A DNA stretch of 8,907 nucleotides from Bacteroidota bacterium (GCA_013696965.1 JACCXN010000062.1:1-8907), one strand, 5' to 3'; shown: positions 3 to 8,907, numbered from the stretch's first letter. Notes: generated from the letters alone by a model not told the origin. Program-made: numbers and translations.

Positions 3-1463
3 GTTTTAGAAGGATTTGAGTCCCCATTCGAAAAAAAATTAAATTCAGATAATCGATGGGTTATTTTGGCAAACCTCATTCCATGGGACGAGATTTGTAA
101 TATTTATCGGAAAGCCATACCAAAAAGTACAACTGGCCGCCCTGGATTAAACCCAAGAATAGTTTTAGGTTCCATAATTATCAAACACTTATGTGATATT
201 GATGACAGGGAAACGGTAAGTCAAATTTCCGAAAATATTTATATGCAATATTTCCTGGGATATTCAAGCTTCTCGGACGAAGCTCCATTCGATGCATCAT
301 TGTTTGTAGAGTTCCGCAAACAATTAGGAATGGATGTGATAAATGAAATCAACGAAAAAATTGTTGACTTAAAAACAAAATTAGAACAAAAAAATGCTCC
401 CAAAGCAGAAAACAAAGACCAAGGGCCAGACGAGAAAAACAACAATAAAGGACAAGTAATAATGGATGCAACTGCTTGCCCACAGGACATTGCATACCCA
501 ACAGATTTGAATTTACTCCATGATGCAAGGGAGAAATCTGAGATGCTAATCGATAGGCTTTACAATAAAGAACTACATGAAAAAAAACCACGTTGCTATC
601 GTGAAAAAGCAAGGAAATTATATCTCCATACGGCACAAAGAAAAAGCAAAACAGGTAAAATAATCAGGAAAGGTGTTGGAGAGCAACTCCGTTTTTTAAA
701 ACGAAACATTAAATTTTTACATAGTTTATTGGACAAATACGAGGCAATCCCTCTCGAAAAAAGCGAACTTAAATATTTATATGTGATCCAAACGCTTTTT
801 GAACAACAGGAATTGATGTTCAAAACAAAAACCAAAACAGTTGAGCATAGGATTGTAAGTATTCATCAGCCCCATGTAAGGCCTATAGTAAGAGGAAAAA
901 GTCAATCCAAAGTAGAGTTTGGGGCTAAGATCCATTGCTCATTGGTTGATGGAATTGTATTTTTAGACGAATTGAGCTGGGATGCTTTCAATGAAGGAAG
1001 CCATTTGATGGAGTATATAGAAATATACAAGAGAAGATTTGGGTTCTATCCAAAGGAACTTTTGGCAGACAAAATTTATTGTACACGAGCTAACCGGGCG
1101 GCTTTGAAAGAAAAAGAAATATTGCTGATTGCCAAACCCTTGGGACGTCCTAAATTGGCAGCGCAAATCGTAGTAAGTCCAGGAGAAAGAAATCCAATCG
1201 AAGGTAAATTTGGCCAAGCTAAAACAGGATATGGTTTAGACCGTATTAAAGCCAGGTTACAAAACACCAGCGAATCTTGGATTGCCAGCATCTTTTTGGT
1301 GCTCAACCTAGTCAAGTTGGCTGGGGTGGCACTCCCATGCTTTATATTTAAGATGTTAAAAAGTATAAAAGCAAATTTCATTGAAAAAAGCACCTTCAAA
1401 ATCAATGTAATTGATTTAACAGGAAATTACACCTCAAGGCATAGGATTTTATGGGAATTTTAA
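3..1463 (+). CDS. IS5/IS1182-type DDE transposase, 5' end outside the window
   Basis: This is a cut-and-paste transposase that acts on the ends of its own insertion sequence. The frame is open to the left edge and has no ATG before position 66. Residues encoded at 3-65 (VLEGFESPFEKKLNSDNRW) read as normal family sequence, so the TTG at 66 is not the true start and the N-terminus lies outside the window. Counting from that TTG, residues 18-105 match the family's N-terminal DUF772-like domain (GRPGLNPRIVLGSIIIKHL, DRETVSQISEN, QYFLGY, PFDASLFVEFRKQLG). The DDE catalytic triad is visible: D134 in MDATACPQD, D335 in LLADKIYC and E379 in IEGKFGQAK. A basic insert around residues 175-220 sits between the first two acidic residues. 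The C-terminus is complete, followed 14 bases later by the probable right terminal inverted repeat. No frameshift or stop is seen, so the enzyme could be active if its left part is intact. IS5 versus IS1182 assignment is uncertain. Confidence 0.93.
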   Translation, partial: VLEGFESPFEKKLNSDNRWVILANLIPWDEICNIYRKAIPKSTTGRPGLNPRIVLGSIIIKHLCDIDDRETVSQISENIYMQYFLGYSSFSDEAPFDASLFVEFRKQLGMDVINEINEKIVDLKTKLEQKNAPKAENKDQGPDEKNNNKGQVIMDATACPQDIAYPTDLNLLHDAREKSEMLIDRLYNKELHEKKPRCYREKARKLYLHTAQRKSKTGKIIRKGVGEQLRFLKRNIKFLHSLLDKYEAIPLEKSELKYLYVIQTLFEQQELMFKTKTKTVEHRIVSIHQPHVRPIVRGKSQSKVEFGAKIHCSLVDGIVFLDELSWDAFNEGSHLMEYIEIYKRRFGFYPKELLADKIYCTRANRAALKEKEILLIAKPLGRPKLAAQIVVSPGERNPIEGKFGQAKTGYGLDRIKARLQNTSESWIASIFLVLNLVKLAGVALPCFIFKMLKSIKANFIEKSTFKINVIDLTGNYTSRHRILWEF

Positions 1464-1556: not shown

Positions 1557-1615
1557 TTTATGTTTTTTTCTATATGCGATTTTCTAAAATAATAATTAAG
1601 AAAAAAAAGCATAAA
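1557..1615. other. Long A/T-rich inverted repeat after the IS
   Basis: TTTATG followed by seven T and a C (1557-1570) is complementary to G, eight A and GCATAAA (1600-1615), with two extra bases (one A and one C of the second arm's complement) and a 29-base loop. It could act as a weak terminator for transcription leaving the transposase gene. The AAAAGCATAA part is also the upstream edge of repeat copy A, because the same bases precede copy D on the other strand. A-tract complementarity is easy to get by chance here. Confidence 0.35.
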
Positions 1616-1850
1616 CTATTCTTTATAAATATTGCAGGAACTTTGGGTGGAAAAAAAATAGCTTTTTGACTTTTGCCGAGGGAGTTGGTCTGTGTGGTTG
1701 AGGCAAAAGGCAAAGTGCTATTTTGTGCGGTAGGGATTTCAATTTTTTTATTGCGGGGAGGAAAAAAACAAAGCACGAGGCGCGGGCCTGCTTCTGGTGT
1801 TGAAAGTAGTATAAAAGTTGCTCAATGAAAAAGGTTTACTGCCCCTGCTG
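1604..1850 (+). repeat. Structured hairpin repeat, copy A
   Basis: This is the best-formed copy of a repeat seen five times in the window. It begins with AAAAGCATAA, then TGCAGGAACTTTGGGT (1633-1648). A two-part hairpin follows. The outer stem AAAATAGC (1655-1662) pairs with GCTATTTT (1717-1724), and the inner stem CTTTTGCC (1670-1677) pairs with GGCAAAAG (1702-1709). The 24-base apical loop holds the motif GTTGGTCTGTGTG (1684-1696). After the hairpin come GGGATTTCAATTTTTTTA (1733-1750) and AAAGCACGAGGCG (1770-1782). Homology to copy C continues to about 1850 (AAAGTTGCTCAATGA against AAAGTTACTGAATGA). Open frames here are not credible genes. The role is unknown: structured RNA, miniature mobile element and recombination site are all possible. 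Confidence 0.7.
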
Positions 1851-1876
1851 ACCCACTGGTCCGCAATGCTTACGGC

Positions 1877-2005
1877 TAACGGTTTTTGCATATACGCTGG
1901 TGGCGATTATCGCACCGAACCAAAAACCGTGAGCAGCAAAGTTAATAGAAATTCCAGGCTTTGCAATAGAGCACCTAGACCGCCACTGGCGGATATGCAA
2001 TGTTA
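1877..2005 (+). repeat. 127-base near-palindromic repeat, copy A (attC-like shape)
   Basis: The unit runs from TAAC (1877-1880) to GTT (2002-2004) and is matched without gaps by a second copy at 8703-8830, with about ten substitutions by eye. Its arms form an imperfect inverted repeat: TTGCATATACGCTGGTGGCG (1886-1905) against CGCCACTGGCGGATATGCAA (1981-2000), 17 of 20 pairs. Inside are smaller palindromes: GCGATTATCGC, CCGCCACTGGCGG, and ACGGTTTTTG with CAAAAACCGT. An AAC/GTT pair at the ends, unequal spacers next to it and imperfect arms recall integron attC sites, but the ends do not match RYYYAAC and GTTRRRY, and no integrase gene is visible. The 80-codon frame at 1818-2060 is an artefact of this GC-rich repeat. 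Confidence 0.75.
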
Positions 2006-2144
2006 TATGATGGCGTTTCCTGCCTTTCAAAACCCTCCTGTTGTTGCGGTTTGCATATAATTATTAGAACATTTTTTGGCTCTGTGGGTTGGGTGTTTTA
2101 TCCTTTTTAAAAGGGGGGAGAAAAATTTAAAATTCTTCTTTTAC

Positions 2145-2242
2145 CTGGGTGGGAAAGACAGAAGCTTATTTGCAATTTTTGGATTGTGAGATGGCTGGTG
2201 TGAATTGTAAATGTGCTTATGGCGGTGTGAAAGGGGATAAGC
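2145..2242 (+). repeat. Structured hairpin repeat, copy E (diverged)
   Basis: This copy is recognised more by fold and loop than by flank. The outer stem AAGC (2162-2165) pairs with GCTT (2215-2218). The inner stem TTTGCAATT (2169-2177) pairs with AATTGTAAA (2203-2211), nine pairs with one G-T wobble. The 25-base loop contains GATGGCTGGTGTG (2190-2202), the same 13-base pattern as copies A and B. CCTGGGTGGGAA upstream weakly recalls the TTTGGGTGG of copy A. The ATTTCAATTTTTT flank is missing. GCTTAT (2215-2220) can alternatively pair with ATAAGC (2237-2242). From here to 2334 I see no gene. Confidence 0.55.
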
Positions 2243-2334
2243 ATTGGCTTTCTTGTTTAGTACTAATATTGGTCGAGGGATAGATTTTGTAAACCCAATT
2301 TTTAACTTTAATTAGAAAATAAATAGTTTAAGAA

Positions 2335-2640
2335 TTATTGCTTTTTGCTAGATGTAAAGTCAAACTTAAATAAATCCTCCACAGGTAATTGAAGAGCATT
2401 GGCCAAATTAAAAACGGTACTTATTGTTGTATTGATTTTGCCTTTTTCAATCTTAGCTATTTGAGAATATTCTATGTCAGCCTGTTCTGCAAGCTTTTCC
2501 ATTGACATACTTTTTTCTTTTCTTAGCTTTCTTATTTGTTCTCCAAAAGCAATAATGTATTCTTTATTTCTTGTAGTATTCACTTTGCGAAGGTGGAATT
2601 CTATTGTGTAATTTGTTAGGGCATATATGCCATAATTCAA
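2335..2640 (-). CDS. Small XRE-family helix-turn-helix regulator
   Basis: This is a single-domain DNA-binding protein of the Cro/C1 (HTH_3) class, most likely a repressor or antitoxin-like regulator. From the ATG at 2640 it has 101 residues. The five-helix domain spans about residues 30-91: FGEQIRKLRKEKSMSMEKLA, then ADIEYSQIAKIEKGKINTT with the recognition helix at about 57-68, then VFNLANALQLPVEDLFKF. Family members usually start just before the FGEQIRKLR block. A GTG at 2583-2581 would give an 82-residue protein beginning MNTTRNKEYI, which fits the family better than the unrelated first 19 residues of the longer form. With that start, the palindrome at 2620-2631 falls upstream of the gene. 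It is divergent from the alpha-CTD-like gene 38 bases away, suggesting that it controls that gene and itself. The domain is certain, the start uncertain. Confidence 0.88.
   Translation of the reverse strand: MNYGIYALTNYTIEFHLRKVNTTRNKEYIIAFGEQIRKLRKEKSMSMEKLAEQADIEYSQIAKIEKGKINTTISTVFNLANALQLPVEDLFKFDFTSSKKQ
2620..2631. promoter_or_regulatory. Perfect 12-base palindrome, possible operator
   Basis: GGCATATATGCC is a perfect two-fold symmetric site between the divergent XRE and alpha-CTD-like genes, 19 bases upstream of the proposed -7 box of the latter. Symmetry and length suit an XRE dimer. If the XRE gene starts at the ATG at 2640 the site lies in its first codons; if it starts at the GTG at 2583 the site is intergenic. 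Binding is inferred only. Confidence 0.3.
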
Positions 2641-2649
2641 TATTTTGTA

Positions 2650-2657
2650 TAAATTTG
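2650..2657 (+). promoter_or_regulatory. Bacteroidota-type -7 box for the alpha-CTD-like gene
   Basis: TAAATTTG matches the TAnnTTTG -7 consensus of the Bacteroidota primary sigma factor. It would place the transcript start near 2664, about 15 bases before the ATG at 2679. No clear -33 TTTG is seen at the expected spacing, so recognition may need help from an activator. Confidence 0.45.
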
Positions 2658-2678
2658 TTAAATAGTTATGAATTGAAA

Positions 2679-3164
2679 ATGTCTAATGAATCACTATTGA
2701 ATCAATATCAAGAAGCCATAAATCCTTATGGTAATTGGATTTGTCAATGGGTTGAATCATCTCAATGTAGTTTGAGAAAAGCAGAAAAAGAATTATTCTA
2801 TCTTCTTAATGAATCAATGGATTTAAAAAGCATTGCTCTTTTTCTTAAAAAAAGTCTATCGCAAATAAAATATAAACTTTGGATTTTAGCTATAAAAATC
2901 CGGCAGGATTATCCATATTTCCGGAAATGGATTACTTCAAACCGTGAGGAAAATTTTCTCACAGCACATTTTGCTTCTTTTGAAATATCTTCAAGGCTTT
3001 ATAACAAGCTTAACTCAACAGGTACTCGAAATTTAAAGGAGTTATTAGAGGAATATGAAGTAAAAGATCTACTAAAATTAAGAGGATTCGGTAAGAAAGG
3101 TTATTTTGAATTTATTACTTTGCTACACTATACAAATAGTGGAAATATCGATTTTGAGTTCTGA
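2679..3164 (+). CDS. Putative regulator: HTH plus RNA polymerase alpha-CTD-like domain
   Basis: This is a 161-residue cytoplasmic protein without signal peptide. The frame is open from 2604, but ATG 2679 (MSNESLLNQY) is preferred because it follows the -7 box and clears the XRE gene. Residues 35-75 (EKELFYLLNESMDLKSIALF, SLSQIKYKL, AIKIR) resemble the helix-turn-helix of sigma region 4 or LuxR proteins. Residues 102-149 resemble the C-terminal domain of RNA polymerase alpha: EISSRLYNKL, then LKELLEEYEVKDLLKLRGFG, then KKGYFEFITLL. By hand alignment to E. coli RpoA, R106, N109, G138, K140 and E144 fall at R265, N268, G296, K298 and E302, residues known for UP-element contact; S299 is replaced by G141. 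The protein is too short to be RpoA and lacks its assembly domain. It may bind promoter DNA or sigma factor. A divergent XRE gene sits upstream. The alpha-CTD-like call is fairly secure; the HTH call less so. Confidence 0.8.
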   Translation: MSNESLLNQYQEAINPYGNWICQWVESSQCSLRKAEKELFYLLNESMDLKSIALFLKKSLSQIKYKLWILAIKIRQDYPYFRKWITSNREENFLTAHFASFEISSRLYNKLNSTGTRNLKELLEEYEVKDLLKLRGFGKKGYFEFITLLHYTNSGNIDFEF

Positions 3165-3166
3165 AA

Positions 3167-3181
3167 GGTAATACATTTACC
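3167..3181 (+). terminator. Weak hairpin after the alpha-CTD-like gene
   Basis: GGTAA, five bases, TTACC forms a 5-pair hairpin three bases after the stop codon. It lacks a T-run, so it may only slow polymerase or protect the 3' end. Confidence 0.2.
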
Positions 3182-3209
3182 TATTCACTTTAGTCAATTA
3201 ATTATTACT

Positions 3210-3459
3210 CGGCAGTCTTTATTATACGCTGGGCATATAGGTGATTGGTGGGTCTTCTTGCCTTTTACACTCAACCAGTTCTACGCTTTGTAGTTTAATT
3301 TCTTTTGGCATAAAAAAATTGAAATCCCCCTACACACAAATAGAATCTTTTACTTTCTCCAAAACGGGCAGATTCTACACACCTAGGAACAAGTAAAAGA
3401 GAGCTGTTTTCTCCAACCCAAAGTTCCTGCATCATATATAAATAAAGGCTTATGCTTTT
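3210..3459 (-). repeat. Structured hairpin repeat, copy D (minus strand)
   Basis: Read on the minus strand this copy begins AAAAGCATAA (3459-3450), has TGCAGGAACTTTGGGT (3431-3416, identical to copy A), and ends its hairpin with GATTTCAATTTTTTTAT. The inner stem is 10 perfect pairs (3346-3355 with 3391-3400), and its sequence differs from copy A by two compensated changes. A weaker outer stem pairs AAATAG (3338-3343) with CTGTTT (3404-3409). The loop is longer, 35 bases, and contains a variant of the loop motif, GTTCCTAGGTGTG (3390-3378). TAGAATC (3341-3347) can instead pair with GATTCTA (3371-3377), an alternative fold. Further on, GGCAAGAAGACCCACCAATC (3262-3243) matches copy C at 17 of 20 bases. 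TATACGCTGG (3223-3232, plus) recalls the arm of the 127-base repeat. Outside it, 3460-3577 is plain AT-rich DNA. Confidence 0.7.
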
Positions 3460-3577
3460 AAACTACTAATAATAATGGACAGTTTATAAAATAAAATATT
3501 ATTTTCTTTGAATTTACTTTTAAAACTGATATTCAATGACTTATTACAATAATATGATTATTTACAAGTATTTTATT

Positions 3578-3585
3578 TATCTTTG
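3578..3585 (+). promoter_or_regulatory. Bacteroidota-type -7 box for the T9SS operon
   Basis: TATCTTTG is an exact TAnnTTTG match, followed by an A-run. The predicted transcript start near 3592 would leave an untranslated leader of about 130 bases before ATG 3722. No good -33 TTTG is present. It is the only such box I see between copy D and the gene. Confidence 0.4.
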
Positions 3586-3721
3586 AAAAACTATAGTTTA
3601 TCTATTAATTTTTCTCGTTCATTTTTGAGTTACCCCAGTAAAGATCGATTTCCCCGATTTCATTTATTTTTTTTTATATTTTATCCTTAAAAGATTCATG
3701 TGTACATACATTTTGAAAGTT

Positions 3722-4660
3722 ATGCGAAAGAAAACTACAATTGTTGTCTTATTGTTTTTAAGTGTTTTTGCTGTAAAATCCCAAACTTATACCATTCCTG
3801 GTGCTACAAAGCAGCCTGCATGGACATTTCCTATATGGATGGAAGATGGCAGCGGACAAAAAGATTCTGTTTACATTGGGTATGATCCTAATAGTAGCGG
3901 ACATTTCGGAGGGAATTTTTGGATGGCCCCACCTTATAATGAAGGAGCGGCAGATACTTCTTTTGGAGAAAAATGGGTAAAAAGAGGGAGTGGATTTTAT
4001 ATTGAACTCCTTGAGAATCCCACCTTAGATTCAATATCAAAAGTCATTGTTACTCAATGGAATTTTTTGAATCTTAATATAAGATTAAACAACGGCATCT
4101 GGCCTATCACCATTAAATATGATGTGGGCTTATTTTATGCTGATACATTACCATTTACTGATACCATAAAACCGGAAGCGTATGCTGAATTTTATTGCAG
4201 TGATGTTTGGCCAGATTCTGATTTTAATTGCTTTACAAATGGCCCGACATATTATTTAACGGATTCTACCCATTACTATTTTGGAAGTAATTGGAGAGTA
4301 ATGCCAGGTGGTTTTGTATTAACTGGTGATAATACAACAACTTCTCCCAATGGAATGGGAATTGACATAATATTCAAAGATTTTTATTCATTTTTTAATC
4401 AAGTAAAAGTTAAAGAAAACATTGGCAATAATTCTTTAAAGGTATTTCCAAATCCTGCGAATAATAATATTACAATTGAAGGTGCTACAGAAGGACCATA
4501 TAATGTTGCAATTTTAGATTATTCAGGAAGAACTGTATTTTCAAAAAATAATCTCCCTAATAAAAGTTCAATACCTGTTTTTTATTTAGAAGCCGGACTT
4601 TATTTTATCAAAGTATCAACTTCAGAATCAGTAAATCTAATTAAACTAATAAAACAATAA
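3722..4660 (+). CDS. Secreted T9SS cargo protein of unknown function
   Basis: This protein has 312 residues when started at ATG 3722 (MRKKTTIVVLL). An upstream in-frame ATG at 3698 would put eight extra residues before the basic start of the signal peptide, so the shorter form is preferred. The signal peptide has a KK start, a hydrophobic core and a likely cut near VKS-Q at about residue 20. Residues 21-238 form an extracellular region rich in aromatic residues, Asp and Gly, which I do not recognise; it is probably beta-rich, with a cysteine pair in FYCSDVW and DFNCFTN. Residues 239-312 are a type A T9SS sorting domain: LKVFPNPANNNITIEG, VAILDYSGRTVF, then AGLYFIKV and a KLIKQ end. The protein should cross the inner membrane by Sec and the outer membrane by T9SS. 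The next gene starts two bases after the stop, so the two form an operon. Confidence 0.88.
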   Translation: MRKKTTIVVLLFLSVFAVKSQTYTIPGATKQPAWTFPIWMEDGSGQKDSVYIGYDPNSSGHFGGNFWMAPPYNEGAADTSFGEKWVKRGSGFYIELLENPTLDSISKVIVTQWNFLNLNIRLNNGIWPITIKYDVGLFYADTLPFTDTIKPEAYAEFYCSDVWPDSDFNCFTNGPTYYLTDSTHYYFGSNWRVMPGGFVLTGDNTTTSPNGMGIDIIFKDFYSFFNQVKVKENIGNNSLKVFPNPANNNITIEGATEGPYNVAILDYSGRTVFSKNNLPNKSSIPVFYLEAGLYFIKVSTSESVNLIKLIKQ

Positions 4661-4662
4661 AT

Positions 4663-5202
4663 ATGAAAAATTTCAATTTGATTATTTGCTTTTTTTTTAT
4701 GTCTATAATTGCTAATGCTCAATTAAGAGAAATAAAGAATGGCGTTAGCATTCCTCCTAAAGGTGAGTTTAGGGCTTTTATTGTTTTTGTTGATATAGAT
4801 TACTCACAATCGGTATGTCCTTGTGGTTTTGGATCAGGTGATGATTATGCTCCTACTTGGCCTGTTATTAATGGAGTTACTCAGGTCCCCACGGATGCTC
4901 ATACTTATTTTAACCCAAATTTGATTAGTTTTCAAAGCAATCCCGCTTTTATTACTGACTATTTTTACCAAGCCTCTTTTGGCTCCTATAAACTTTTTGG
5001 TGACTATTATCCAAAAGTAATAAAGGTAAACTGCGATGAGGTTGATTTTGGGAATGGATTAAATCTCATTTTAGGTAAACTTCAACAAGAACCATTACAA
5101 AATGGCACTTTATATTCAGCAAGTGGTTTGCCACTGGCAGCATTTGATTCATGGACACCTACGGCTCAAGGATTCCAAAAATTAAATACAAGCGAAAAAT
5201 AG
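4663..5202 (+). CDS. N-terminal part of a secreted M6-like protein, truncated by a frame break
   Basis: This frame encodes 179 residues starting with a clear signal peptide (MKNFNLIICFFFMSIIANAQ, cut near residue 19). The mature part resembles the beginning of secreted M6-like (immune inhibitor A-type) metalloproteases of Bacteroidota: FRAFIVFVDIDYS at about 37-49, and FITDYFYQASFGSYKLFGDYY at about 95-116, the segment that normally precedes the catalytic domain. No HExxH zinc site is present, and the frame stops at TAG 5200-5202 shortly after FDSWTPTAQGF, so no protease activity is expected. It has a signal peptide but no sorting domain; the overlapping next frame has a sorting domain but no signal peptide. 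That suggests both are pieces of one gene. One added A in the A5 run at 5195-5199 would join them into 807 residues. The M6 relation is moderately supported. Confidence 0.7.
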   Translation: MKNFNLIICFFFMSIIANAQLREIKNGVSIPPKGEFRAFIVFVDIDYSQSVCPCGFGSGDDYAPTWPVINGVTQVPTDAHTYFNPNLISFQSNPAFITDYFYQASFGSYKLFGDYYPKVIKVNCDEVDFGNGLNLILGKLQQEPLQNGTLYSASGLPLAAFDSWTPTAQGFQKLNTSEK

Positions 5203-7085
5203 TGTCAAATTCAATCCTATATTTAGATAATGTATTATTTACATCTACTACAGGTGCGAAAAATAATCATCATGGACTTCATGCCTCGGTTGATGTAACT
5301 CATCATATTCATAATTCCACTTTTGAATATGGGCGCTATGGAGCTTATTCCGTCTTAACTTTAAATCATGTCCATTCCAATTTTGCTGAAACAATTAAAT
5401 TCACTAATTGTATTTTTCGCAATAATGATTATGGTTTAGTAACTGTTGGGCAAGGAGCACATATAGAAAACACTCAATTTTTAAATAATTCTAATACAGG
5501 CTGGTCTGCGCAGGGAATGACCATGCCATCTGAATTTAAAAATAGTAGCATTCTTAATAGTCCTACTGGGATTAATTACATAGCAGGTTCTACAGGGAAT
5601 TTATTTATTAATTATTCCAATGTAACCAATACCTCAAGTAATGGAATAGTGTTTTTAGGCAATGCTTTATTAAGTGTTAATTGCAGTAATATTAATTCAA
5701 CAAATAATAGTTCAAGCAAGGGAATATATTTAGGAGACGGAGCATCAATTAACATGAGTCCTTCACTATCTCCTCCATCTGGAAGATCTAGAGTGACAGG
5801 AAGGATTTCCATTCAAGGAGCAGAAGAAGCGCTAATTTCAAACCCTACTGAAAGAGTCAAAATAATTGGCGCAGCAAATGAATTATTTCTTGATCAGGGA
5901 CAGAACAACCTTAGCCCACAAAGTTCCCAAGGCAAGGCCATCAATGGGAATTTTTACTTTGATGCTTGTCCTACAAGCCCAATTATTGCCAATTTTAACA
6001 GATGGAATTCTTCAAATACCAGTCCGGCAAATGGTATTGATTATCATGTTCGCTCACCAATGTGCATTAATACTACTATTTTTATAACAGATAATAATCC
6101 GGGAAGTATAGTATGTACAGCAATTGCCAGGCCTCGCCAATCTTTTTATAAGCCGCACGAAATGGCGGAAGCAAACCAAGGAGGCCCTAACTCAATTTTT
6201 AAAAAATTTGAAAGGGGATTAAACAAACTTGAAAGTAAAGATTACATTGACGCGATAAATGAGTTTAGAGATATATTATTTGCGAACATTCCTCAACCAA
6301 CTCCACTTTCAAAAAAAGTAACAGAGCTTTCTTATAATTATATGCATTATGCTGTAGGAAAAGCTTATTCAGAGGGACTGATTAATAATACAGGTTCAGG
6401 AACTAATCAATATATGGCAAGTCTTTTAGCAATTGAGGATATTAGGATTAATAAAGCTATCCTTGATTCGGATATTAGTGCTGAATATACAGCGAAAATG
6501 GATAAAGCAAAATCACTGGTGTTAGCAGATAAAAGAACTGATGCATTACCTATTTTTTATGGGAATTATATAATTTCAGATTCAAGCAATTTTGAAGAAC
6601 TTGATAGTTGGATTTGTATTATTAATAAAGAGCAGGATTTGATTGATGGAATTCTTGAATTAAAGGATTTTGCCGAAGCTTTAATTAACTGTCAAGAGCA
6701 AACCACTGTATTAAATAGAATTAATAATAGTAATGATCCTCAGGAAATAATGAGGATTTTTGAATCTAAAGGAAGATCAAAGAATTCCAATGAAGCAAAA
6801 ACTTCAAATAATCCTGCTGCTTTTTTGGAAGAAACTACTGCTATTGCTAATATTCCAGTTTTTAAATTTTATCCAAACCCTACAAATGGCAAATTTACTA
6901 TCGAATCTAAAAACATTCATAATATCAAAATCTTCAACCTAATTGGGGACCTTATCTATGAATATAAGCCTAATACAGAACAATCCTTGTTTGAAATAGA
7001 TCTTTCTGCCCATGCTAAAGGGGTTTATATAATTAAAGTAAATGGAGAGAATTATATTGAAGTAAAAAAATTGGTTCATCAATAA
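5151..7085 (+). CDS. Beta-helix and T9SS sorting-domain protein, 5' end broken or fused to the preceding frame
   Basis: The frame has 644 codons if counted from ATG 5151, but the first 17 overlap the end of the M6-like frame and look like shadow sequence. Meaningful sequence begins near GTG 5202 (VSNSILYLDNVLF), which overlaps the upstream stop as TAGTG, so coupled re-initiation is possible. Residues about 20-215 are a right-handed beta-helix of the pectate-lyase-fold kind, with repeated Asn-rich turns (FTNCIFRNNDYG, IENTQFLNNSNTG, INYSNVTN). Residues about 345-540 are helical and partly TPR-like (FERGLNKLESKDYIDAINEF). Residues 571-644 are a type A T9SS sorting domain: FKFYPNPTNGKFTIES, IKIFNLIGDLIY, KGVYIIKV, KKLVHQ. 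No signal peptide is present in this frame. It is followed 39 bases later by a strong terminator. Likely a surface-anchored adhesin or glycan-binding protein if expressed as a fusion; otherwise a pseudogene fragment. Confidence 0.75.
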   Translation: MDTYGSRIPKIKYKRKIVSNSILYLDNVLFTSTTGAKNNHHGLHASVDVTHHIHNSTFEYGRYGAYSVLTLNHVHSNFAETIKFTNCIFRNNDYGLVTVGQGAHIENTQFLNNSNTGWSAQGMTMPSEFKNSSILNSPTGINYIAGSTGNLFINYSNVTNTSSNGIVFLGNALLSVNCSNINSTNNSSSKGIYLGDGASINMSPSLSPPSGRSRVTGRISIQGAEEALISNPTERVKIIGAANELFLDQGQNNLSPQSSQGKAINGNFYFDACPTSPIIANFNRWNSSNTSPANGIDYHVRSPMCINTTIFITDNNPGSIVCTAIARPRQSFYKPHEMAEANQGGPNSIFKKFERGLNKLESKDYIDAINEFRDILFANIPQPTPLSKKVTELSYNYMHYAVGKAYSEGLINNTGSGTNQYMASLLAIEDIRINKAILDSDISAEYTAKMDKAKSLVLADKRTDALPIFYGNYIISDSSNFEELDSWICIINKEQDLIDGILELKDFAEALINCQEQTTVLNRINNSNDPQEIMRIFESKGRSKNSNEAKTSNNPAAFLEETTAIANIPVFKFYPNPTNGKFTIESKNIHNIKIFNLIGDLIYEYKPNTEQSLFEIDLSAHAKGVYIIKVNGENYIEVKKLVHQ

Positions 7086-7124
7086 TTCATTAATAAGCTT
7101 TGCTTTTTAAGCTTAACTGCAAAT

Positions 7125-7164
7125 AAAAAAAGGCTGCTTATAATTGTGAAAGCAGTCTTTTTTT
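7125..7164. terminator. Strong bidirectional intrinsic terminator
   Basis: Seven A and GGCTGCTT (7125-7139) pair with AAGCAGTC and seven T (7150-7164), giving a 15-pair stem with one G-T wobble and a 10-base loop. T-runs follow on both strands, so it should end transcription of the plus-strand T9SS operon and, from the other side, of the convergent gene at 7448-8335. Confidence 0.85.
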
Positions 7165-7191
7165 ATTTTGTTTTTCTGTTTTTTCATCATT

Positions 7192-7358
7192 AAAATTAGC
7201 TTTCTAAATACATTGCAGCCAATGTGCAGTTTTGTGTGCTGTGTATTTCAATTTTTTGGATGCATGAAGAAAAATTAAATTGCGAAGCATAGGACTGCCC
7301 CTGTATTTTAAAATTGCAGAAAGTTACTGAATGATTAAGGCAAGAAAGGCCACCAATC
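7192..7358 (+). repeat. Structured hairpin repeat, copy C (short-loop form)
   Basis: This copy lies between two convergent genes. It has a small hairpin, ACATTG (7210-7215) with CAATGT (7220-7225) and a 4-base loop, instead of the long loop of copies A, B and E, and only a weak outer pairing (AAAA with TTTT). The 3' flank is clearly of the family: TTTTGTGTGC, then ATTTCAATTTTTT (7245-7257), then a GCGAAGCATAGGACTGCCCC block like those after the hairpin in A and D, AAAGTTACTGAATGA (about 7320) like copy A, and GGCAAGAAAGGCCACCAATC (7339-7358) like copy D. The upstream TGCAGGAACTTTGGGT is absent. The rest of the gap, 7359-7447, holds a small hairpin CCTTC/GAAGG and no gene. Confidence 0.55.
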
Positions 7359-7447
7359 CCTTCTGTGACTAGTGAATAAAAGTCTGCCGCAGAACATTTC
7401 CTTCATACCGAAGGTGGGGCTGATTTGCAACTTTTCTGGATCCAGTG

Positions 7448-8335
7448 TTATGGCGCATTTTTTATTATTTTTCTTCGAACTATTCCTTGATTAGTTTCAA
7501 CCTCTAATATATACATTCCATTATTTAAACTAGAAGTTAAAATTGATGAATTTTCTGTGGTAAATAATAAACTGCCATTTAGATCAAAAACTTTAATTCT
7601 ACTAATTATAGTTTCATTTTCTGTTTCTATATTTAAATATGTAGAATTGGGATTGGGAAAAACTCTTATTTTGTTACTTAGCACAGTTGATTCAATTCCT
7701 GTTCCTAAACAATTAAACTCAAAATCATCAAACATCCATCCATCTTTATTAGTTTCTATATTGTCACTTGAGAATGTAAATCGAAATCTTACATAATTTA
7801 ATGCATAACCTAAAATTTGGGATTTTGTCCATTCTTTCGTTCCTGAAAAACCAGGTTTATTTGAGTTGCTGGAAATAATACTTGAACTTTCATAAAAATT
7901 CTCTAACGTAAATTGAGGCGCATTGACTATGTTTGTCCAAGTGACGCCACCATCACTAGAAATCTCAACAATTCCCCCATCTGCCAGAGTATCTGAATTA
8001 ATTTTATGCCAAAAGGAAATATGGGTTGCGTCATCGGAACGGATTACTAATTCAAAAGAGGATACATTATTAACTGGATAAGTATTTATTGTGTCTGTTA
8101 ATAAAGCGAGTGGTGCAGAATAAGCTATGTCAAAGAATGATTTGGAAGGATTGCCTATTTGCCAAATGTTATTCAGTTGATTTGTGTCGACATAAAAATA
8201 ATTAGAAGTGTCTCGGTCTTCAAAATTACTATTAGGTTGAGGAAAATTATAGGCAATTGAATATATAGTGTCTTGTCCAAAGGCAAAAAGCTTTACAAAA
8301 CCTAATAAAATCAATGTCAGTAAACCTTTTTTCAT
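7448..8335 (-). CDS. Secreted T9SS cargo protein with jelly-roll (MAM-like) domain
   Basis: The frame is open from 8443, but the ATG at 8335 is preferred: it gives 295 residues starting with a proper signal peptide (MKKGLLTLILLGFVKLFAFG, cut near FG-Q) and sits about 35 bases downstream of a -7 box. The extra 36 residues of the longer form are AT-rich and family-unlike. Residues 70-215 look like a beta-sandwich ligand-binding domain found in many Bacteroidota exoproteins: SSFELVIRSDDATHISFWHK, ADGGIVEISSDGGVTWTNI, YVRFRFTFSSDN and DGWMFDDFEF. Such domains bind carbohydrate or protein, but the ligand here cannot be told. Residues 223-295 are a type A T9SS sorting domain (IRVFPNPNSTYLNIE, IKVFDLNGSLLF, NGMYILEV, RRKIIKNAP). 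It is transcribed towards the plus-strand operon and separated from it by copy C and a bidirectional terminator. Confidence 0.88.
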   Translation of the reverse strand: MKKGLLTLILLGFVKLFAFGQDTIYSIAYNFPQPNSNFEDRDTSNYFYVDTNQLNNIWQIGNPSKSFFDIAYSAPLALLTDTINTYPVNNVSSFELVIRSDDATHISFWHKINSDTLADGGIVEISSDGGVTWTNIVNAPQFTLENFYESSSIISSNSNKPGFSGTKEWTKSQILGYALNYVRFRFTFSSDNIETNKDGWMFDDFEFNCLGTGIESTVLSNKIRVFPNPNSTYLNIETENETIISRIKVFDLNGSLLFTTENSSILTSSLNNGMYILEVETNQGIVRRKIIKNAP

Positions 8336-8376
8336 AGCATAAATTTTAAATGCGTTATAACTAAGACTTATATTAA

Positions 8377-8384
8377 CAAACTTA
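8377..8384 (-). promoter_or_regulatory. Bacteroidota-type -7 box for the minus-strand T9SS gene
   Basis: On the minus strand TAAGTTTG matches TAnnTTTG. Transcription would begin near 8370, leaving a leader of about 35 bases to ATG 8335, which supports that start over 8443. No convincing -33 box is seen. Confidence 0.5.
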
Positions 8385-8455
8385 ATGTTTATTTTAATCT
8401 TTATTAATAGAATAGTAATAAATTTCATAATGAGTTGTATCATCTAAAATACAAA

Positions 8456-8690
8456 GCAGAAACTTGTGGGTAGGCGGAAATGGCTCTTTTCCTTTTGCAT
8501 TGTGTGATGGTTCGTGTGTATGGGCAAAAGTAAATGTGCCATTTCCTGCGCTGGCAATTTTAAATTTTGTGCGAGAGGTAAAAAGGATAAAGCACGAAGC
8601 GTTTGGTTGCTCTGTTTTTGAGAGTTTTACAAAAGGTGCTAAATGCTTCTGCCTAAAGGATTGCGGCCTATTCTGTCTCTCCGAAAACCA
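8456..8690 (+). repeat. Structured hairpin repeat, copy B
   Basis: This copy is parallel to copy A in order and spacing. GCAGAAACTTGTGGGT (8456-8471) corresponds to the conserved start. The outer stem GGAAATGGC (8476-8484) pairs with GCCATTTCC (8538-8546), nine perfect pairs; compared with copy A two pairs have changed on both sides. The inner stem CTTTTGC (8492-8498) pairs with GCAAAAG (8524-8530). The 25-base loop holds GATGGTTCGTGTG (8506-8518). AAAGCACGAAGCG (8589-8601) matches copy A. The 127-base repeat follows, as it does after copy A. Both long open frames across this stretch, one per strand, lie within the repeat and look spurious. Confidence 0.7.
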
Positions 8691-8702
8691 TACGCTATCA
8701 TA

Positions 8703-8830
8703 TAACGGTATTTGCATATACGCAGGTGGCGATTATTGCACCGAACCAAAAACCGCGGGCAGCAAAATTAATAGAAATTAAAGGCTTTGCAATAGAGCAC
8801 CTAGACCGCCACTTGAGGATATGCAATGTT
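8703..8830 (+). repeat. 127-base near-palindromic repeat, copy B (attC-like shape)
   Basis: The second copy of the unit at 1877-2005 lies in the same orientation 6826 bases downstream, with no length difference between AAC and GTT. Arms are TTGCATATACGCAGGTGGCG (8712-8731) and CGCCACTTGAGGATATGCAA (8807-8826). The block CTTTGCAATAGAGCACCTAG is identical in both copies. The centre of the arms is less well paired than in copy A, while the CATAT and GTGGCG parts of the stem are kept. After it, 8831-8907 shows no gene or signal I can support. Confidence 0.75.
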
Positions 8831-8907
8831 GTGCGTAGTGCATTCATAAAGTCCACTCAATAAAACTCGTCAAAAATTATGGTCATAAAGTATTCCAACT
8901 AAGTAAT

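Follow-up and report, generated by a model that had tools for sequence, protein, structure and literature searches.

The 8,907-nucleotide stretch analysed here (GCA_013696965.1 JACCXN010000062.1:1-8907; hereafter the window) corresponds to contig C62 of a Bacteroidota genome (3.86 Mb, 106 contigs) and is very probably part of a large chromosomal integron-like array, in which the cassettes would have been captured by an upstream recombinase at an attI-like site. Integrons are textbook gene-capture devices, and the resemblance to them centres on a folding site of about 127 bp, similar to the attC sites that end integron cassettes, of which the window carries two copies that are 92% identical and more conserved than the hairpin repeats lying nearby. 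The first-pass annotation had listed the hairpins and missed this most conserved repeat of the window (1878-2004 and 8704-8830), which abuts two of the listed copies.

About 51 copies of the site were identified in the host genome, as a rule in one orientation per contig and spaced 0.5-8 kb apart, with many contigs ending within the site. The site is an imperfect palindrome with AAC..GTT ends and its fold is conserved rather than its sequence, as is characteristic of integron attC sites. The outer stems of the host sites are kept by compensatory exchanges (double changes in 8 pairs as against 1.9 in shuffled alignments), and the sequence of the L stem changes freely with the pairing kept (TACCC/GGGTA, TTGGC/GCCAA, TTTGC/GCAAA, TATAC/GTATA). 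A G following AAC on the bottom strand, reported for most attC sites (PMC2727003), is also present. The core was at first assumed to lie in the plus-strand orientation of the window, which was overturned by the orientation of the genes between sites, 119 reading toward the site and 24 away from it, and by the polarity of the recombinase; the true orientation of the site is therefore the reverse complement of the window plus strand. Covariance models were constructed for the host sites (R1) and for a wider set drawn partly from the R1 matches (R2). The complete cassette of the window and its bounding sites are as follows.

1880-8705, minus strand: complete integron-type cassette of 6,826 bp, with its start G^TTATATGAT at 8706/8705 and the attC-like site 2004-1878 at its end
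1878-2004, minus strand: attC-like site of the complete cassette, with AAC..GTT ends and covarying outer stems (R2, 104 bits)
8704-8830, minus strand: attC-like site of the preceding cassette (R2, 103 bits)

The two flanks of a single site do not match as complements; the complementarity runs from site to site, the bases that follow one site being the reverse complement of those that precede the next. In the window, the start arm GTTATATGAT (8706-8697) and the end arm ATCATATAAC (2011-2002), both on the minus strand, are reverse complements of each other, and among adjacent sites of the host none of 20,000 permutations gave a flank complementarity as good. In the other array-bearing genomes, the arms agree at 6.83 of 10 positions over 53 adjacent pairs, compared with 3.49 in permuted pairs (0/5,000 as good). 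Each segment ends in the reverse complement of its own beginning, so that excision as a circle would restore a long hairpin. When rejoined in silico, the ends of the window's cassette give a single long hairpin at the site, and of 66 rejoined circles 57 fold better than the corresponding array copies (p=7e-11; mean -30.5 and -24.6 kcal/mol, respectively). A cassette start complementary to its own end, with a G^TT crossover, is the signature of integron gene cassettes.

A cassette would thus extend from one G^TT crossover to the next and comprise a short variable start arm, the gene or genes and the attC-like site; in the host it would also carry a leader hairpin after the start arm, in several cassettes a promoter-like motif, and a trailer hairpin before the site. 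On excision the two cassette ends would meet to form a long imperfect hairpin, consisting of a variable arm of approximately 10-15 bp, AAC/GTT, an asymmetric spacer, the L stem, a GTGGCG stem and a variable terminal loop. The recombinase may then recombine the folded strand with the double-stranded attI-like site, where new cassettes would be inserted. Recombination itself, the single-stranded substrate and the choice of strand are predicted here from sequence features.

The arrays are headed by a tyrosine recombinase gene that is read in the same direction as the cassette genes; as in integrons, the recombinase gene adjoins the cassette array. Of the 102 sites at 40 recombinase loci, 99 are 3' of the recombinase, all in the matching orientation; a 3' site was found at 34 of these loci, and three of the remaining six end within about 250 bp. 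Nineteen of 20 control loci are without a site and the twentieth met another array. In named genomes, which include Flavobacterium aciduliphilum, Algoriphagus ornithinivorans, Arundinibacter roseus, Algibacter onchidii and Zunongwangia mangrovi, 62 of 63 sites agree with the polarity of the recombinase. These regularities bear on the proposal, offered in the first-pass annotation for the hairpins, of an element resembling a miniature inverted-repeat transposable element (MITE) or a repetitive extragenic palindrome (REP). Many dispersed copies with inverted repeats would suit non-autonomous transposons, whether the hairpins or the 127-bp core. The terminal inverted repeats, however, are not shared but vary between cassettes, each segment's end pairing with its own start across the cassette and not across the core, the orientation and polarity are fixed relative to the recombinase, and compact genes lie between the sites, which together make such an origin highly improbable.

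An attI-like site is located beside the recombinase, as in integrons. The end arm of the first cassette's site was used to predict where that cassette starts, and a GTT with a match of at least 8/10 was found at 43 of 51 loci, compared with 1.5 expected for permuted targets (at most 7 in any of 300 permutations). The attI-like crossover lies a median of 94 bp after the recombinase stop codon, in the motif TATAWAnnA|GTT. In pairs of related genomes, identity over the 300 bp up to the junction is 77-97% and falls to 34-47% after it (for example from 97 to 34%, from 95 to 34% and from 90 to 47%); therefore the same attI has different first cassettes behind it. Between the recombinase stop codon and the crossover, the attI region often contains a 10-20-bp inverted repeat (e.g., loci L174, L177 and L192).

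Two such recombinases are encoded in the host genome, on contigs C14 and C44. The C44 protein (L022:73-2013) has 646 residues and a long N-terminal extension in which the extra domain described below is seemingly repeated. An array that is a remnant, comparable to the clusters of attC sites lacking integrases (CALINs), with no active recombinase in the host and with unrelated phage or Xer proteins nearby, would agree with the fragmentation of the host array, with the degeneracy of several sites and with there being just two recombinase genes beside sites. Against this, both host recombinases are open reading frames (ORFs) with an attI-like site behind them (L211, L045), and in dozens of genera an array with a matching attI is preceded by a recombinase of the same family; such a remnant is accordingly considered improbable. 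CALINs share with the present arrays attC-like sites without a recognised IntI, but differ in that here a recombinase is present, one that fails the IntI profile.

The recombinase scores better against the integron integrase profile TIGR02249 than against XerC/D, yet below the cut-off, with profile positions from about 178 to 240 unmatched. The alignment with V. cholerae IntIA (2A3V) breaks at the additional domain, where IntIA has 60 residues and the recombinase 17, and about 42 residues of 2A3V have no counterpart. In almost every array recombinase measured, K and H are spaced about 65 residues apart. No canonical IntI was detected above the profile cut-off in the host genome. A structure model (mean predicted local distance difference test score, pLDDT, 86) has an extra N-terminal domain of beta-beta-alpha-beta-beta-alpha topology. 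This fold may be HARP-like (a fork-recognition domain, as in SMARCAL1) or XPB-like, a weak lead only: Pfam HARP matched 1 of 18 sequences (E=0.001), the best Foldseek match was 4o66 (E 0.39, weak), and HARP was absent among the VIA-align matches listed for the domain, leaving the lead unconfirmed by a second aligner.

By both sequence and fold, the catalytic domain is closest to XerA, to NF040815 ('site-specific tyrosine recombinase/integron integrase'), a product name borne by one plasmid copy of the recombinase, and to the integron-like subgroup of simple tyrosine recombinases (PMC8138268). Unlike those enzymes, the present recombinases are encoded at the start of attC-like arrays and have an IntI-like C-terminal SPxD motif along with the N-terminal beta-beta-alpha-beta-beta-alpha domain; no paper tying such enzymes to cassette arrays was found in the literature. 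In the integron-like subgroup, the IntI insertion is described as not fully conserved (PMC8138268). The kinship to XerA and the lack of the I2 helix, together with attI-like sites that look double-stranded, would fit an ordinary Xer-type enzyme working on double-stranded palindromic sites, the hairpin potential being a by-product of symmetric half-sites. An L stem that varies freely with its pairing kept is, however, unexpected for symmetric binding of a fixed half-site, the start and end arms are cassette-specific and pair only in the excised form, and the better-folding strand is the attC bottom strand (-30.5 as against -27.2 kcal/mol); this explanation is thus regarded as rather unlikely.

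Several observations weigh against an integron-like capture system. The array recombinases lack the IntI additional domain with the I2 helix, a defining character of integrons, and because of this the canonical single-strand mechanism cannot simply be assumed. The GTTRRRY consensus of the R' box is absent, the sites having GTT followed by A or G and then variable bases. Two recombinases of the same family (L208, L212) have no site within 10 kb, and the host array is broken up among many contigs. Since a search for the IntI additional domain and for the GTTRRRY box found neither, the system has not been classified as an integron; its anatomy is integron-like and it departs in one defining respect, I2.

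The hairpin repeats for which the window had first been annotated are real, and they are accessories rather than the recombination site. The repeat sequence is present in each of the four intergenic gaps longer than 300 bp (1464-2334, 3165-3697, 7086-7447 and 8339-8907), as had been claimed. The quoted outer stems were recovered at 1655/1717 (AAAATAGC/GCTATTTT) and 8477/8538 (GAAATGGC/GCCATTTC) and the inner stems at 1670/1702 (CTTTTGCC/GGCAAAAG) and 3347/3392 (CTTTTACT/AGTAAAAG). The count of five copies holds in part: the hairpin copies exist, 7192-7358 is partial and without a hairpin, and 2149-2244 belongs to a second subtype. The copies are listed below, R3 being the covariance model of the leader hairpin built from 27 host copies.

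8465-8567, minus strand: leader hairpin of the complete cassette, close to its start and 5' of the gene 7448-8338 (R3)
1643-1746, minus strand: leader hairpin of the next cassette, likewise close to the start (R3)
2149-2244, minus strand: trailer hairpin (second subtype) near the cassette end, about 145 nt from the attC-like site of the complete cassette
3316-3422, plus strand: leader hairpin copy in inverted orientation, 5' of the plus-strand genes 3698-7085 (R3)
7192-7358, minus strand: partial leader copy without a hairpin, unmatched by R3

Searches of the host genome with R3 gave about 31 forward copies, nearly all on site-bearing contigs, with one clear copy (contig C42) and one weak copy (C80) elsewhere; paired changes exceed chance, and the outcome on which the earlier claim of a selected fold would have fallen, namely no further copies or pairing at chance level, was not seen. 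Over its 27 aligned copies, the leader hairpin has 95.2% of its stem cells paired and 51 double-changed cells, compared with 12.6 in shuffles (0/500 shuffles as high); the trailer hairpin has its own covarying stem, with 98.1% of cells paired and 28 double-changed cells as against 6.8. As the double-changed cells exceed the shuffles in both subtypes, the compensatory changes are real, and selection on the fold is supported. The suggestion of a recombination site came close, but the listed hairpins lie about 135-145 nt to either side of the site. The leader hairpin is situated about 135 nt from a site and upstream of a gene, followed in several cassettes by a Bacteroidota-like promoter TATGTTTG, and the trailer 0-70 nt 3' of many stop codons; the compact cassettes of other genomes have no room for such hairpins. 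They may function as boundary elements of the cassette transcription unit, that is, as insulators, terminators or leader RNAs. That the hairpins are in themselves independent small RNAs or riboregulators travelling with the cassettes is less likely than not, and is compatible with an integron-like array. The strong covariation of both subtypes and their placement around genes and promoter-like motifs speak for it; however, Rfam gave no match above threshold for them, and the same positions would also suit insulators or terminators.

The remaining genes of the window, which was without any Rfam match above threshold, are the following.

7448-8338, minus strand: cassette gene for a secreted protein with a type IX secretion system (T9SS) sorting domain (Por_Secre_tail)
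2335-2640, minus strand: cassette gene for a Cro/C1-type helix-turn-helix (HTH) regulator
2679-3164, plus strand: protein with an RNA polymerase alpha C-terminal-like domain
3698-7085, plus strand: T9SS-sorted secreted proteins within the cassette, in inverted orientation
3-1463, plus strand: insertion sequence (IS) transposase (DUF772 + DDE), in the neighbouring cassette region

The small protein with the RNA polymerase alpha C-terminal-like domain adjoins the HTH regulator within the cassette. The ORFs 4663-5202 and 5151-7085 overlap in different frames and look like a single secreted T9SS gene broken by a frameshift. A strong stem flanked by A and T runs at 7093-7179 resembles an ordinary terminator, and its Rfam match to Thr_leader is weak and far under threshold.

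The system is widespread in the Bacteroidota. A plain DNA search of 60 relatives returned nearly nothing, and homologues were reached by covariance models only, R1 retrieving divergent ones across the phylum. In the R2 alignment across the Bacteroidota, 105 cells are double-changed as against 31 in shuffles. With eight candidates scored per genome, at least 178 of 386 Bacteroidota genomes and at least 102 of 173 genera carry the site at E<=0.001, a threshold to be read in the light of the rough E-values of R2; the flank-complementarity and polarity tests rest on features outside that model. Arrays are present in complete genomes, one of which (G111) has about 15 sites over 37 kb, and the recombinase is also encoded on a Chryseobacterium plasmid, together with five sites. 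Recombinase matches outside the Bacteroidota have no sites alongside. Ten cassette ORFs of other genomes gave no Pfam match. In G111, a 324-aa ORF is repeated in several cassettes, always against the cassette direction, and is probably an insertion sequence.

L123:15057-16031: 324-aa ORF
L124:1901-2875, 4522-5496 and 17016-17990: 324-aa ORF
L125:5798-6772: 324-aa ORF

Among known systems, the closest likeness is to sedentary chromosomal integrons such as the Vibrio cholerae superintegron with its V. cholerae repeats (VCR/attC), which likewise have a recombinase, attI and long arrays of mostly unknown genes. The folding sites are similar in length, in AAC/GTT ends, in the complementarity of cassette start and end and in gene orientation, and varied cassettes stand behind the same attI. 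In contrast to that superintegron, the present recombinase has no IntI additional domain, has an extra N-terminal domain and points toward the array, R' is GTTR and not GTTRRRY, the pairing arms are about 10-15 bp with a conserved G.T, and the asymmetric spacer is about 5 nt and not 1.

In a survey with IntegronFinder 2.0, complete integrons were essentially absent from the Bacteroidetes except in Salinibacter ruber (PMC9024848), and in the literature consulted, with preprints and subscription papers outside reach, no description of integron-like arrays in this phylum was found. The I2 helix docks extrahelical attC bases, is regarded as required for single-strand attC recombination and is held to have given integron integrases this ability; both are described as exclusive to these enzymes, with evolutionary intermediates lacking (PMC7790495). 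On balance we favour a separate integron-like lineage in about half of the sampled Bacteroidota, in which an I2-less recombinase probably captures folded single-stranded cassettes and represents either a state preceding I2 or a solution by another domain. If true, an integron-like system would be present in about half of the sampled genomes of a highly abundant phylum from which integrons were reported to be nearly absent (PMC9024848), overlooked by the present finders, which require IntI. An I2-less recombinase beside attC-like arrays makes the question of the missing intermediate (PMC7790495) directly testable, and the cassettes constitute a large pool of genes of unknown function.

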